IMG/VR virus record: IMGVR_UViG_3300046557_000358
Coordinates: 1 to 35,634 of that record
Reading direction: 5' to 3' (one strand)
Origin: a virus
Length of the DNA: 35,634 bases
Each line of letters opens with the position of its first letter. The stretch's first letter is position 1. Shown piece after piece: positions 3,075 to 10,054 of the stretch. The notes below the pieces were generated by a model. The model did not search any database and was not told where the DNA came from. It was given only the letters and a program-made list of their open reading frames with translations. Made by a program: the position numbers and the translations under genes.

Positions 3075-3350
3075 ATGAGCGGCACCGAGTACGGGCACGT
3101 GCAAGTGACTCGCCACCTCGGCAAAGGCGTCACCGTCGACGCCGCTCCCCAGCGGGCCAAGATGGACGTCGGACTCCTCACCCACCCCGGCCTCTACCTC
3201 CGCGTAGAAGCAGGCGACATCGTCCTCGCGGACCAGGTCGTCTACCGGATCACCGGCTACGACCCCGACGACTACACGCTCACCCTGGAACTCCTCACGG
3301 ACTGGCGACCCGGCGAGAAGGATGACCCCAACGCCAAGTCGCAGCCGTGA
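3075..3350 (+). CDS. Hypothetical phage protein (91 aa)
   Basis: ATG start with GAGGAG a few bases upstream, two bases after the previous stop. The sequence (VTRHLGKGVTVDAAP, LYLRVEAGDIVLADQVVYRITGYDP) is compatible with a small beta-barrel. The last four bases overlap the HNH gene (GTGA). Function unknown. Confidence 0.75.
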   Translation: MSGTEYGHVQVTRHLGKGVTVDAAPQRAKMDVGLLTHPGLYLRVEAGDIVLADQVVYRITGYDPDDYTLTLELLTDWRPGEKDDPNAKSQP

Positions 3351-3640
3351 GCGGCAGCTGGCAGGGTTCGGACCGCAAGGGCCGGCTCCCGTCGAACTGG
3401 CGGACCATCCGCGCCAAGGTGCTCGCCCGCGACCCGGTGTGCAAGATCTGCGGCGTGCGGCCATCCAGCCACTGTGACCACGTCAAAGCCAAGACGGACG
3501 ACCACGCAGAGGATCGCCTACAAGGAGTCTGCGAACCCTGCCACCTGCAGAAGTCTTCGGCCGAGGGCAACGACGCACAGCGCGCCAACCCCCAAGCCGG
3601 ACGGAAGCGACCGCCCGAGCAACACCCCGGACTCCTGTGA
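3347..3640 (+). CDS. HNH endonuclease
   Basis: 97 residues with a zinc-stabilised HNH fold. Cys32 and Cys35 (CKIC) pair with Cys62 and Cys65 (CEPC), and the catalytic first-motif His is in CDHVKAK (Asp44-His45). The second half HAEDRLQGVCEPCHLQKSSAEG-type sequence provides the last His (His66). The Asn of the canonical motif is replaced by Arg57, a variation I believe is common in actinophage members. Free-standing HNH proteins encoded near the terminase genes assist DNA cleavage at packaging in several cos phages (established for HK97-like systems). Here it lies 2 kb upstream of the terminase genes and just before the noncoding gap. It starts with GTG overlapping the previous stop. A homing-type role is less likely given its small size. 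Confidence 0.88.
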   Translation: MSGSWQGSDRKGRLPSNWRTIRAKVLARDPVCKICGVRPSSHCDHVKAKTDDHAEDRLQGVCEPCHLQKSSAEGNDAQRANPQAGRKRPPEQHPGLL

Positions 3641-3656: not shown

Positions 3657-4079
3657 GTGAACGCACTCCAGCAGTTCTGCTACGAGCGCGTCCCCAGCTT
3701 CAAGCGCGAACACGGCGGCCTGTACCGCTTGTACTCCGATACCTACTCGCGCTTCTATGCCGCTCGGATGCGATACCTCCACCGCCACGGACGGCACGCC
3801 GCGCAACGTGGACTCGACCCGCGCTGCTCCTGGTGTGGCGCTCCCTCGGCACGCCGCCACGTGACCGCCTACCTGATCGTCCACCCGCGCGACCAGAAGC
3901 GTGACGACGTCCTCATCGAAGACCCCCACCTCGGCCTCAATGTCACCGACGGATGGGCAGTCTTCACCGACGCCGCCGGGATCTGCCTCGCCATTCCCGC
4001 AGGACTAGGCGCCCAGATCCAACGGGTAGACGAAGACCAGGAGCCCGTCAGCCAGGAGTCCGCGCCGCAGAAGGAGTGA
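3657..4079 (+). CDS. Hypothetical protein with partial zinc-knuckle (140 aa)
   Basis: The reading frame is open from 3474, but that part overlaps the HNH gene. The GTG at 3657 with GAGAGG about 9 bases upstream is the best start. The N-terminus is basic and Tyr-rich (YRLYSDTYSRFYAARMRYLHRHG), followed by RCSWCGAPSARRHV, a CxxC plus His pattern that could be half of a zinc site. The C-terminal half is acidic and beta-rich. Position beside the HNH gene suggests a nucleic-acid-related role, but this is inference only. Confidence 0.65.
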   Translation: MNALQQFCYERVPSFKREHGGLYRLYSDTYSRFYAARMRYLHRHGRHAAQRGLDPRCSWCGAPSARRHVTAYLIVHPRDQKRDDVLIEDPHLGLNVTDGWAVFTDAAGICLAIPAGLGAQIQRVDEDQEPVSQESAPQKE

Positions 4080-4085
4080 CCGACT

Positions 4086-4343
4086 GTGGCCAGCCGCGCC
4101 AAGTCCAACCGCCGCATCGTCCGCGAAGGGCGCCGCTACTGGAGCGACCGCCCCACCAGTCGAGGTAAGGCGGCTGGCATCGGCTTCGCGCCTCGCTCTG
4201 GATCGTTCACGCGCTGTGTGTCCAGGGTGCAGCGCTTCATGGGGCCGCGCGCGAAAGGCTACTGCGCGCTTCGCTTCCACGAGGCCACCGGGATCTGGCC
4301 CGGGTCGAAGGCCAACCGAGGGATCAAGGGACGTGGGCGATAG
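4086..4343 (+). CDS. Small basic hypothetical protein (85 aa)
   Basis: GTG start (MASRAKSNRRIVREGRRYW) six bases after the previous stop. The product is strongly basic throughout and could bind nucleic acid. CSRVQRFMGPRAKGYCALRFHEATG includes two Cys and one His without a clear zinc pattern. It is the last gene before a 567-bp noncoding gap. No family recognised. Confidence 0.6.
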   Translation: MASRAKSNRRIVREGRRYWSDRPTSRGKAAGIGFAPRSGSFTRCVSRVQRFMGPRAKGYCALRFHEATGIWPGSKANRGIKGRGR

Positions 4344-4577
4344 GCCAACCGAGTCGCTCCGAAGCCGACCGTGTCAGCCGGCCTGAGGTCAGGCCCGTCA
4401 CCCAGGAGGACGGGCGACGGGGTGGCTGCTGGTGCACGCCTCCCTCGGCGGCCGGGAGCGGTAGGGGTAGGGCAGGCGCTGCCCCCACCCCACCCACCCA
4501 GGGTGCGTGCCGGCCGAGGGCAGGCGAGGGTGAGGCAGGCGATGTGGTCATGGTCAGTGTCGACTCGTCGAGCTGAG

Positions 4578-4733
4578 TGATCAGTCAGCGAAGGTCGATT
4601 GACTGTTCGATGTGATCAAGGTTCAGGTGTTCGAGATCATCTCAAGATCCATTGGGATTGAAATTCCTTGATCCAATTCAAACTTTTCAAGATCATGCAG
4701 ACCAAGATCACCTGGGGGGATATCCCAAGATCA
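4578..4733. repeat. Array of eight GATC-centred repeats (consensus CAAGATCA)
   Basis: GATC cores lie at 4579, 4614, 4635, 4646, 4670, 4691, 4706 and 4729. Three are exact CAAGATCA (4688-4695, 4703-4710, 4726-4733), one is CAAGATCC (4643-4650), and two are in inverse orientation (TGATCAAG at 4613-4620, CCTTGATCC at 4666-4674). Several spacings are 11 or 21 bp, close to whole helical turns, as expected for cooperative protein binding on one face. This looks like an iteron or multi-operator array. Confidence 0.6.
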
Positions 4734-4898
4734 ACTTTATTTTGGGGTCGGGCCCGTATAGCACCTGACCCCGTGTACGGGTTCCCAGGGCCCTGACCTG
4801 CGGAGACGTCGAGCCGGCGCGGCGCCCCCCTCCGGCGGACTTCGTCTCGGATCAGTAACTGTGCAGGTCAATCGCCTATAGCCGTTAACTCGGCCCGC

Positions 4899-4904
4899 TA
4901 TCCT
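4899..4904 (+). promoter_or_regulatory. Possible -10 box of a leaderless promoter (TATCCT)
   Basis: TATCCT ends six bases before the ATG at 4911, which would put the transcription start at or next to the start codon. No Shine-Dalgarno sequence precedes that ATG, which fits leaderless translation. No good -35 box is seen 16-18 bases upstream. Confidence 0.4.
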
Positions 4905-4910
4905 GGACTC

Positions 4911-5537
4911 ATGCCAGGGACGCTTCAGAAGTGCGAGCACTGCGGGGGAGAGCTGCCGGTCGTGCACCGGTCTGACCGCCGCTACTGCTCGGACTCGCAC
5001 CGCGTCCTCGCAGCTCGGGCCCGTAAGCGCCAGCGCGACGCGGAGCTGATGGCCGAGCAGCAGGCCCGCATCCCGGCCGAGTTGACCTCGCGTCCCCGCT
5101 GGGTGCGACACAAGGGCAAGGTTCCGATGCGCATCGACGGCCGCTTCGCCTCGGTGAAGGATCCCTCGTCCTGGTCGGACTACTCGACGGCTGCGGCCTC
5201 CTGCACCGGTGATGGTGTCGGCTTCGTGCTGACGGCCGGCGACGGCATCGTCGTTGTCGACCTGGACCATGCGGTCGAGGACGGCCAGGTGTTGCCCTGG
5301 GCGCAGGGGATCGTGGACCAGCTGCCGCCGACGTACATGGAGCGTGGCCGGTCGGGTACCGGCCTGCATCTGTGGTTCCGTGGCGCGGTCCCGGCTGGCC
5401 GACGTATCCGCAAGGGGGAGTTGGCGGTCGAGGTGTACTCGGATCGCCGCTACATGATCGTCGGCGACCGGGTTCCGGGTACGCCGCTCAGCCTTGCCGA
5501 GCTGCCTGATGCAGCCGGTTTGATCGCCTCGCTCTGA
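4911..5537 (+). CDS. Primase-polymerase (AEP/Prim-Pol domain) with N-terminal zinc knuckle
   Basis: 208 residues. An N-terminal knuckle (Cys8, Cys11, Cys26, His30) is followed by a basic helix and an archaeo-eukaryotic primase-like domain of the bifunctional primase/polymerase N-terminal type. The metal-binding pair is Asp117/Asp119 in VVVDLDHA, the nucleotide-binding motif is SGTGLHLWF (Ser148-His153), and EVYSDRRYMIVG (from Glu174) is the third motif. The helicase domain often fused to such proteins is absent, so this is a stand-alone Prim-Pol. It probably primes or extends DNA during phage replication. Its placement between the repeat-rich gap and the terminase genes, rather than in an early replication block, is unusual but known in actinophages. 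There is no ribosome site before the ATG. Confidence 0.78.
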   Translation: MPGTLQKCEHCGGELPVVHRSDRRYCSDSHRVLAARARKRQRDAELMAEQQARIPAELTSRPRWVRHKGKVPMRIDGRFASVKDPSSWSDYSTAAASCTGDGVGFVLTAGDGIVVVDLDHAVEDGQVLPWAQGIVDQLPPTYMERGRSGTGLHLWFRGAVPAGRRIRKGELAVEVYSDRRYMIVGDRVPGTPLSLAELPDAAGLIASL

Positions 5538-5622: not shown

Positions 5623-6060
5623 ATGGGCGCACACGGACCTATCCCGAAGCGTTCCGAGGAACGCCGTCGCCGCAACAAGGACGACGGCCCCGAGTTGGTC
5701 CAGGCCCCGTCCGGGGCTCCCGAGGATCTACCGGACTTGCCCGAGCCGAACGAGCTGTGGCATCCGATCGCCACAGACTGGTACCTGAGCCTGCGCGAGT
5801 CTGGGCAGGCCGCGTTCTACGAGCCGTCGGACTGGGCGGTCGCCCGCTACGTCGCTGAGCTCATGTCCCGCGGACTGTCGGAGGATCGGCCGCCGAACGG
5901 GCAGTACGTCGCGGCGCTCAACAGCGCGATGGCGTCACTGCTGACGACCGAGGGTGACCGTCGCCGTGCCCGGATGGAGCTGGAGCGGAAGAAGCCTGCC
6001 GGGCCGAGGTTGGCTTCGGTGAGCCCGCTGGATTCCTACCGTGACATCGCAGGCGGTTGA
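5623..6060 (+). CDS. Terminase small subunit
   Basis: 145 residues starting MGAHGPIPKRSEERRRRNKD, the typical opening of actinophage terminase small subunits (P27-like), followed by ELWHPIATDWYLSLRESGQAAFYEPSDWAVARYVAELM and a C-terminal helix with Arg-rich ends. The frame is open from 5548, but the ATG at 5623 has GGAGG seven bases upstream and gives the family N-terminus. The small subunit recognises the packaging site and recruits the large subunit. It overlaps the next gene by 20 bp, as is common for this pair. Confidence 0.88.
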   Translation: MGAHGPIPKRSEERRRRNKDDGPELVQAPSGAPEDLPDLPEPNELWHPIATDWYLSLRESGQAAFYEPSDWAVARYVAELMSRGLSEDRPPNGQYVAALNSAMASLLTTEGDRRRARMELERKKPAGPRLASVSPLDSYRDIAGG

Positions 6061-7795
6061 CGAGCAGGTCCCGGACGTCGTCGAACCCTTCACTCTCGGG
6101 CCGACGTGGAAGCGCGGCCCGAACGGGAAGTTCCTGCTGCCCGAGTACACGCTGGGGTGGCAGTGCCTCGCCTGGACGAAGACGTACCTGCAGCACTACG
6201 TCGGCAAGCCGTGGCAGTACACGCCCGAGCAGGCCCGTTTGACCTTGTGGTGGTACGCGATGGATCCGGTGACGAACCGGTTCCTATGGCGCGACGGCGT
6301 GATCCAGCGCCTGAAGGGTCATGGCAAGGATCCACTGAAGGCGACGTGGGCGGCGTTCGAGTTCGTGGGGCCGTGCCGTTTTGACGGGGTCGCGGACGAG
6401 GGCAACGAGTGGGGTGTCCAGCCGGGGCAGCCGTTGGGGATTCAGCATCCGGCGGCGTGGGTGCAGATCGCGGCCGTGTCGCAGGATCAGACGCGGAACA
6501 CGATGACGCTGTTCCCGCTGATCCTCTCGAAGCGGGCGATCGAAGAGTTCCGGATCGACCTCGGCAAGGAAATCATCTATGCCGACAAGGGCCGGGCTCG
6601 AGTCGAGGCTGTGACGTCGTCGCCGCGCGCCTTGGAAGGTGGGCGGCCAACCTTCACCTCGATGGGGGAGACGCATCACTGGCTGGAGTCGAACTCGGGC
6701 CACGAGATGGCGGCCGTGATCGAGCGCAACGCAACCAAGAGCGCCGACGGGCAGTCGAGGACGCTGGCGGACACGAATGCCTTCGAACCCGGCGAGGACT
6801 CCGTAGCGGAGCGGACCAGGGACGCCTACGAGGCCGCGGAGGCCGGCCGGGCCGTGAATGTCGGGCTGTTCTACGACACGCTGGAGGCTCCGCCCGAGGC
6901 GAAACTGACAGAGGCGTGGATCGAGCCGACGCTTCGCGCGGTCCGCGGGGATTCGACGTGGCTGGACATCGGCCGGCTGAAGGCGTCGATCCTCGACGTC
7001 CGTAACCCGCCGTCCCGGTCACGCCGCTTCTGGTACAACCAGATCGCCGCGGCCGAGGACGCGTGGATGGCCCGCTACGAGTGGGACGCCTGCAAGCGCG
7101 AGGACCTGGCGCTCGCCGACGGCGACGAGGTCGTCCTGTTCTTCGACGGCTCCAAGTCGGACGACGCGACGGGCCTGGCGGCCTGCCGGATGTCGGACGG
7201 GCTGGTGTCCGCGCTCGGCGTGTGGCAGAAGCCAGCGAACTGGCCGGCGCCGAACACTCCAGGCTTCGTGCCCTACCGGGTGCCTCGCGACGAGGTCCAT
7301 GGCGTCGTCGAGAACGCGTTCGGTCGGTTCAAGGTGCTGGCGTTCTTCGCCGACCCAGGCTCTGGTCAGGACGATGACGACGGCGAGATGTACTGGGACG
7401 CCTACATCGACACGTGGGGTCAGGCGTGGGGTTCCAAGCTTGCGCTGCGGTCGGTGATGTCGGGCCCGAAGGCTCATGCTGTGCGTTGGGACATGCGTGA
7501 TACCCGCAATCAGGAGACGTTCACGGAGGCTGTGAAGCGGACTCACGCGGACGTGCTGGAGCGGACGCTCATCCATGACGGGCACAAGGTGCTGCGTACT
7601 CACGTGATCAACGCGAGGCGCAGGACGAACCGTTGGGGGATCACGATCGGCAAGGAGCACCGTGAGTCTGCACGGAAGATCGACCTCGCGGTGTGCGCGA
7701 TCGGGGCGCGAATGCTGCGCCGCATGATCCTCAACTCGCCGAAGCGGCCCAAGAAGAAGACCGGCGGCAAAGGACGGGTGGTGGTGCTGCGATGA
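6041..7795 (+). CDS. Terminase large subunit
   Basis: 584 residues, the usual length. The ATPase domain has a P-loop variant KGHGKDP (Gly93-Pro98), with Asp97 where Thr/Ser is normal; I believe KGxGKDP is frequent in this actinophage branch. A Walker B-like segment FTSMGETHHW has Glu210 as the probable catalytic acid. The RNase H-like nuclease domain has FFDGSKSDDATGL (Asp369), FADPGSGQDDDDG (Asp438) and ARKIDLAVCAIGA (Asp548). It cleaves concatemeric phage DNA and powers packaging through the portal. GTG start at 6041. It is coupled to the portal gene by an ATGA overlap. Confidence 0.95.
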   Translation: MTSQAVDEQVPDVVEPFTLGPTWKRGPNGKFLLPEYTLGWQCLAWTKTYLQHYVGKPWQYTPEQARLTLWWYAMDPVTNRFLWRDGVIQRLKGHGKDPLKATWAAFEFVGPCRFDGVADEGNEWGVQPGQPLGIQHPAAWVQIAAVSQDQTRNTMTLFPLILSKRAIEEFRIDLGKEIIYADKGRARVEAVTSSPRALEGGRPTFTSMGETHHWLESNSGHEMAAVIERNATKSADGQSRTLADTNAFEPGEDSVAERTRDAYEAAEAGRAVNVGLFYDTLEAPPEAKLTEAWIEPTLRAVRGDSTWLDIGRLKASILDVRNPPSRSRRFWYNQIAAAEDAWMARYEWDACKREDLALADGDEVVLFFDGSKSDDATGLAACRMSDGLVSALGVWQKPANWPAPNTPGFVPYRVPRDEVHGVVENAFGRFKVLAFFADPGSGQDDDDGEMYWDAYIDTWGQAWGSKLALRSVMSGPKAHAVRWDMRDTRNQETFTEAVKRTHADVLERTLIHDGHKVLRTHVINARRRTNRWGITIGKEHRESARKIDLAVCAIGARMLRRMILNSPKRPKKKTGGKGRVVVLR

Positions 7796-9258: not shown

Positions 9259-10054
9259 CGGCTCGGAATCGTCCGGAAAGTGGCGGGCGGCTCAGCGTGG
9301 GCTGACGCGCCTGCTCTTGCGGGATCTGCTGGCGTTGCGGCGGCTTATCAACCAGAACCGCCTCCAGGCGACTGTGCCGCCGTGGATCGACGCGGTGACC
9401 GAAGTCGTGGCCCGCTATTCGGAGACGTCGGCGACACTGGCTGCCGATTTCTACGACGGTGAGCGCGAGGCGGCCGGCGTGCCCGGCTCGTTCACGGTGC
9501 CGCTGGCCGATCCGCCGCCGGATGAGCAGGTTGACTCGTCGCTGCGCTGGGCCACGAAGGATCTGTGGCCACACGATGAGGCCGACGCCACGGTCGCGCA
9601 GCAGGAGCCGTTCGACGTTCGACTCGAGGCTGCGATCGTGAAGGCGGACGGGGCGGCCCAGAAGCTGGTCGCCGACCGCGGCCGGGAGACCCTGCGGCAG
9701 GCCGTGAAAGCGGATCGGGAGGCGGTTTCCTACGCGCGCGCCGCAGCGCTCGGCGCCTGCTCGTTCTGCAAGCTCATGGCGTCCCGCGGGGCCGTCTACA
9801 AGAACGCCCAGACCGCCGGTCGAGACGCGAATGACCGCTTCACCGGTGACGCGTCGGTGGTGAAGTTCCACAACAACTGCCACTGCGCGATCATCCCCGT
9901 CTTCCGGGGGCAGCAGTTCGAGTTGTCGCCGCATGCGGCGGAGTGGGATCGCATCTACCGCGAGTACGCCCAAGGCCATCCGGGAGACCAACTCCGCCTG
10001 TTCAGGCGGGCACTGGCGGAGCACGACTCGAACCCGCTCCCCGGATCTTTCTGA
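9239..10054 (+). CDS. MuF-like minor capsid protein
   Basis: 271 residues with a TTG start at 9239, supported by CCGGAGG at 9226-9232. The C-terminal half carries the MuF-like minor head signature: Cys174-x2-Cys177 (CSFCKLMASRGAVY) and FHNNCHCAIIPVF (His211, Cys214, His215, Cys216), probably a zinc site. The N-terminal half is helical. Such proteins sit at the portal vertex and may be injected with the DNA. Location directly after the portal fits. No toxin domain is fused to it. Confidence 0.87.
   Translation: MASTTSDGSESSGKWRAAQRGLTRLLLRDLLALRRLINQNRLQATVPPWIDAVTEVVARYSETSATLAADFYDGEREAAGVPGSFTVPLADPPPDEQVDSSLRWATKDLWPHDEADATVAQQEPFDVRLEAAIVKADGAAQKLVADRGRETLRQAVKADREAVSYARAAALGACSFCKLMASRGAVYKNAQTAGRDANDRFTGDASVVKFHNNCHCAIIPVFRGQQFELSPHAAEWDRIYREYAQGHPGDQLRLFRRALAEHDSNPLPGSF

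Follow-up and report, generated by a model that had tools for sequence, protein, structure and literature searches.

A cluster of GATC sites at 4579–4732 of the viral record IMGVR_UViG_3300046557_000358 is probably a conserved part of a cos site, flanking the predicted cut at the right end of the genome. The window referred to below is the whole stretch of DNA analysed, positions 1–35,634 of that record. Comparison of related loci makes it likely that, in this family of temperate Streptomyces phages, the array is a protein-binding part of cos that does not depend on the terminase, and the best reading, by analogy, is a cosQ-like multi-site nucleoprotein element. It probably serves neither as a replication origin nor as a regulatory switch linked to the adjacent primase gene.

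The GATC array

The array (unstranded) was defined by listing its sites and analysing their register. Eight GATC sites, starting at 4579, 4614, 4635, 4646, 4670, 4691, 4706 and 4729, are all located within 4579–4732, in agreement with the first-pass annotation, which had counted eight cores in about 150 bp. Three exact copies of CAAGATCA begin at 4688, 4703 and 4726, two copies with one mismatch at 4632 and 4643, and copies in the inverse orientation are found at 4614 (GATCAAG) and 4667 (CTTGATC), as had also been described. The array is the GC minimum of the window (41.7% over 156 bp, compared with never less than 53% elsewhere), which upholds the claim that this is its only AT-rich stretch, and it is followed after 178 bp by the start codon of Prim-Pol (ATG at 4911), as reported. 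Spacings of 11 or 21 bp, said to recur, both occur, but 11 bp just once and 21 bp twice; from one GATC to the next the array runs 35, 21, 11, 24, 21, 15 and 23 bp.

GATC is common throughout the window (287 copies). When the window was simulated 200 times with an order-1 Markov model, eight GATC never fell within 156 bp; with an order-3 model they did so in 6 of 200 runs, because the tetramer is so abundant. Judged on this single window alone, the significance of the cluster is only marginal. The doubt is removed by conservation of the array in dozens of loci, which also bears out the earlier view of an unusual multi-site element, one that comparison of these loci suggests is most likely protein-bound. 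In the open-access literature we found no GATC or other repeat array at an actinophage cos, and thus no described counterpart, as the first-pass annotation had supposed.

A predicted cos site beside the array

With the Prim-Pol as query, IMG/VR yielded 32 loci, and named genomes a further 10, of which nine are from Streptomyces and one is from Yinghuangia. Further loci were drawn from 393 Streptomyces genomes and from DNA-pattern searches. A search for the repeats upstream of homologous Prim-Pol genes, proposed earlier as a check, gave a GATC-rich stretch in most loci, together with a highly conserved core, CGGGGCCGTAT-AGCACCTGAC-N4-TGTACGGGTTCCCNAGG; the GATC-rich stretch is otherwise poorly conserved in sequence. 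In the window the core reads CGGGCCCGTAT at 4749–4759 and continues from 4760 with AGCACCTGACC, and the array ends 16 bp to its left.

In the record of Streptomyces phage Samy, an 11-bp cos, CGTTAAGGTGC, is annotated at the right end, where the authors predicted it from virion read coverage at the termini (PMC11302927). The Samy junction aligns with the window over cosN and its flanks, and by this homology an 11-nt 3′ overhang is predicted at 4749–4759 (+ strand), CGGGCCCGTAT in the window and CGGGGCCGTAT in the family consensus. Samy also has Prim-Pol as its first gene, an HNH gene near the right end, TGTACGGGT from +15 and a G-run/C-run repeat left of the cut. Unlike the array family, it has only 5 GATC over 230 bp, mostly within a coding gene, and lacks the small right-end gene g85 described below. 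Six public viral contigs (L004, L011, L014, L015, L021 and L027) start close to the predicted cut, between −1 and about +12, L014 exactly at AGCACC and L015 at the same place after adapter-like sequence; the predicted virion left end is at 4760–4773 (+ strand; AGCACCTGACCCCG). Among the contigs searched, none was found to terminate at cos from the right-hand side. The linear record of Corynebacterium phage Juicebox has the same end gene order as the window's family, with Prim-Pol, a TerS homologue and TerL at the left end and HNH at the right.

The terminase and HNH genes adjoin the predicted cos in the window's family. In the window these are TerS (5623–6060, +), assigned by its Pfam match to PF25673 (Terminase_7), TerL (6041–7795, +; phrog_9) and an HNH endonuclease (3347–3640, +; phrog_333) that by analogy with HK97 gp74 may be the right-end packaging nuclease. 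TerS also matches phrog_226, labelled 'minor tail protein', a label that looks wrong. On the strength of the Samy alignment, the contig ends and the end gene order of Juicebox, the conserved core is predicted to be the cos of a Streptomyces temperate phage family.

Left of the cut lies an imperfect inverted repeat of a G-run and a C-run, GGGGGGATATCCC, which contains the palindrome GGGATATCCC (4714–4726, unstranded). Its form is kept by the whole family as well as by Samy and VWB, and GGGG was the most conserved tetramer in both pairwise tetramer comparisons (793 pairs and 22 closer pairs). Such a repeat stands shortly left of the cos or record end in a diverse set of actinophages, namely Samy, VWB, Juicebox, Bauer and EmiRose. 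Elsewhere, two cos-like cores in opposite orientation were seen about 100 bp apart beside an HNH gene (L113, around 9400–9600). Three Streptomyces genomes (L110, L111 and L115) carry cos-like cores of the form CGTATAGCAGC...GTACGGGTTYC, possibly from other phages or satellites; the gene search at L110 and L111 did not find the array, g85 or TerL of the window's phage family.

Register of the array relative to the cut

GATC density is 3.0–3.8 per 100 bp from −200 to the cut and about 0.5 further upstream; to the right of the cut it is 0.39 per 100 bp (0 to +100) and 0.16 (+100 to +200). The array is thus on the upstream side of the predicted cosN, the end predicted to be packaged last. For analysis of spacing, loci with 0–1 GATC and those of other families were excluded and the rest dereplicated, leaving 39 loci, all with at least 3 GATC, that hold 311 sites and 272 adjacent intervals. 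Intervals of 14–16 bp made up 80 of the 272, compared with 19.4 ± 4.2 expected and a maximum of 36 in 5000 simulations. In these 39 loci the sites pile up at −14 (28 loci), −24/−23 (27 loci), −31, −39, −54 and −69; the three exact CAAGATCA copies of the window (GATC at 4691, 4706 and 4729) occupy positions −69, −54 and −31. Helical phasing was considered and rejected, as distances between sites peak at about 15 bp and not at 10.5 bp.

TGATCA accounts for 22% of array sites but 4.6% elsewhere; A/T-flanked cores in general are enriched, the favoured core being TGATCA/AGATCA. In 22 related pairs, which share loci and are therefore non-independent, GATC was retained in 66% of cases and ranked 11th of 139 tetramers; the figure for tetramers as a whole was 42%. 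These closer pairs were used instead of a 793-pair comparison, which was set aside because most of its pairs were barely alignable. Within the family the array reaches 14 sites over about 230 bp. Three relatives with the same cosN have only 0–1 GATC (L049, L109 and L044), so that not all cos sites of this type require the array.

The small right-end protein g85

The best covarying candidate for a partner of the array is g85, an 85-residue basic protein (phrog_6439) encoded at 4086–4343 on the + strand. When right-arm open reading frames in the forward direction were compared, g85 and the HNH gene were both present in all 35 array loci with a complete right end. Among four array-less relatives g85 was present in one (L044) and missing from L049, L109 and L051. 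Fisher's test gives p = 4e-4 for the association, a value that ignores kinship, includes only four array-less relatives and uses GATC cut-offs (array at least 3, array-less at most 1) set after the counts were seen. The exceptions are L044, with g85 and one GATC, EmiRose, with a g85 homologue and none, and Samy, with 5 GATC and no g85.

A structure model of g85 is all-helical (pLDDT 76). The structures it matches, in other actinophages, are domains of proteins for capsid maturation or morphogenesis, not known DNA binders. A Pfam search with g85 gave nothing above the family cut-off, and matches of its fold in the PDB were insignificant. We tentatively regard g85 as the most likely binder of the array, on grounds of its distribution. 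It is conceivable, although rather doubtful, that array and g85 form a GATC-reading packaging module that links the DNA end packaged last with the head and is exchangeable between phages with different terminases; g85 would then be a free-standing version of a domain that elsewhere is fused to proteins of capsid maturation or morphogenesis. Also in the right arm, at 384–1864, the window encodes a methyltransferase-fold protein and an NAD-dependent epimerase.

Alternative explanations

The array adjoins cosN, and P1 pac, a close analogue, is a 161-bp site of seven TGATCA/G hexamers bound by the pacase (PMC10028697), so the small terminase itself might bind the array, like the R sites of lambda cosB or the PacA-bound hexamers of P1. 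In HK97, TerS binds from +15 to +29 (PMC11331095), and it is for this reason very likely that bases +15 to +31 are the TerS site of the present family. They read GGGTTYCCNAGG, GGGTCTGGGG or TGCGTGCG according to TerS type; the predicted recognition site of the window is TGTACGGGTTCCCAGG (+15 to +30; 4774–4789, + strand). The array is kept in loci whose TerS is undetected by the main-family profile (L163 and L132) or distantly related (L142, L145, L016 and L050), and it is absent from L049 and L109, which have the main-family TerS. TerS swaps thus alter +15 to +31 but spare the array, which is therefore not explained by TerS, and binding by the small terminase appears unlikely. The binder need not be phage-encoded, and the array is AT-rich in some loci, so a host DNA-bending or nucleoid protein could occupy it, just as lambda cos and P1 pac are bound by IHF. 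However, presence of the array follows the phage gene g85 and not the host, the named hosts being nearly all Streptomyces whether or not the array is present, and we consider a host protein extremely improbable.

The first-pass annotation had linked the array to the Prim-Pol gene (4911–5537, +) and read it as an origin or multi-site operator. Gene search and comparison of loci indicate that this gene is an optional insert between cosN and TerS. The array is kept where Prim-Pol is missing from cos (L163 with 13 GATC, L112 with 10, L142 and L131 with 8 each, L147 with 7, and also L114, L128, L146, L159, L122 and L132), and the predicted cut separates the two, which would therefore lie at opposite genome ends in the virion; the link is not supported. 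AT-rich, iteron-like repeats and a change in the sign of GC skew around cos would suit an origin. In the family the skew passes from about −0.12 to +0.09 around cos (about 4000–5000 in the window), although in the window the genes on both sides of cos run in the same direction; most loci show a change of sign there, with or without the array. The same switch is seen in the array-less relatives L049, L044 and L051 and in VWB, SF3 and Bauer, and therefore follows cos or the gene arms rather than the array; the GC-skew check proposed earlier is thus uninformative about the array in particular. With Prim-Pol dispensable and no other replication genes found near the array, we regard it as very unlikely that the array is an origin, although one could lie near cos. 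An operator or promoter region for Prim-Pol or the right-arm genes would fit the intergenic position of the array in the window and the presence of repeats in both orientations. The GATC sites, however, are in register with the cos cut and not with any start codon, holding their positions relative to cosN while genes on both sides change, and in L016, L019 and L056 the array appears, by eye, to enter coding sequence. A separate inverted repeat, TGACCTGC (4794–4801) and GCAGGTCA (4863–4870), unstranded and assigned to the Prim-Pol cassette rather than the core cos, travels with Prim-Pol, being absent where the gene is absent (L109, L112 and L114) and present near it in Juicebox, and would better suit its control region. 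Control by the array is thus highly improbable.

Together, Prim-Pol and the TGACCTGC...GCAGGTCA leader that precedes it (4794–5537) have the look of an optional cassette inserted between cosN and TerS. In two more distant Streptomyces Prim-Pol phages (L089 and L094), repeated TGACCTGC/GCAGGTCA stands on the right-end side in place of GATC repeats.

Discussion

As a protein-binding part of cos, the array would be bound by several copies of one protein, side by side on the GATC cores, with g85 as a tentative candidate. The bound protein would mark or shape the right half of cos, where TerL and the HNH nuclease would stop and cut at the end of packaging, a role like that of cosQ; alternatively, it might hold or protect the last-in DNA end. 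TerS would read +15 to +31 across the cut, as in HK97.

The array can be seen as resembling either an enlarged counterpart of lambda cosQ or the P1 pac hexamers. In lambda, termination requires cosQ, which is situated upstream of cosN and does not depend on TerS/cosB specificity (PMC4669245). The array is similar in its position upstream of cosN and its TerS independence, but cosQ is a single 7-bp site, and no cosB-like R repeats were found at the array-family cos. HK97 cos is similar in the position of its TerS site, the HNH nuclease and the 3′ overhang, and differs in that the accessible part of its description names no upstream repeat array (PMC11331095). As in P1 pac, GATC hexamers cluster at the packaging site, with TGATCA the most enriched core. 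Unlike the array, which is one-sided and next to cos, the P1 site serves headful packaging and lies inside pacA, its hexamers fall into two groups, and Dam methylation regulates cleavage. The hexamer groups of P1 reportedly stand on both sides of the cut, an arrangement that is not seen in the array family, given its low GATC density just right of the cut. A search for phage-encoded Dam-type (D12) methylases (PF02086) in 18 viral records of the family, several of them possibly fragments, gave one match and 17 records with none; PF01555 was above the cut-off in one of the same 18. With so few phage-encoded methylases in these records, a methylation-controlled pac was rejected.

Little is known of the packaging sites of Streptomyces prophages, which are relevant to cosmids, transduction and satellites. 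In this family the TerS swaps are a natural experiment in which array and terminase site are separated. If a GATC array stands on one side of cos in phage records that mostly have no Dam-type methylase, another packaging system would have arrived at a solution like that of P1 pac.
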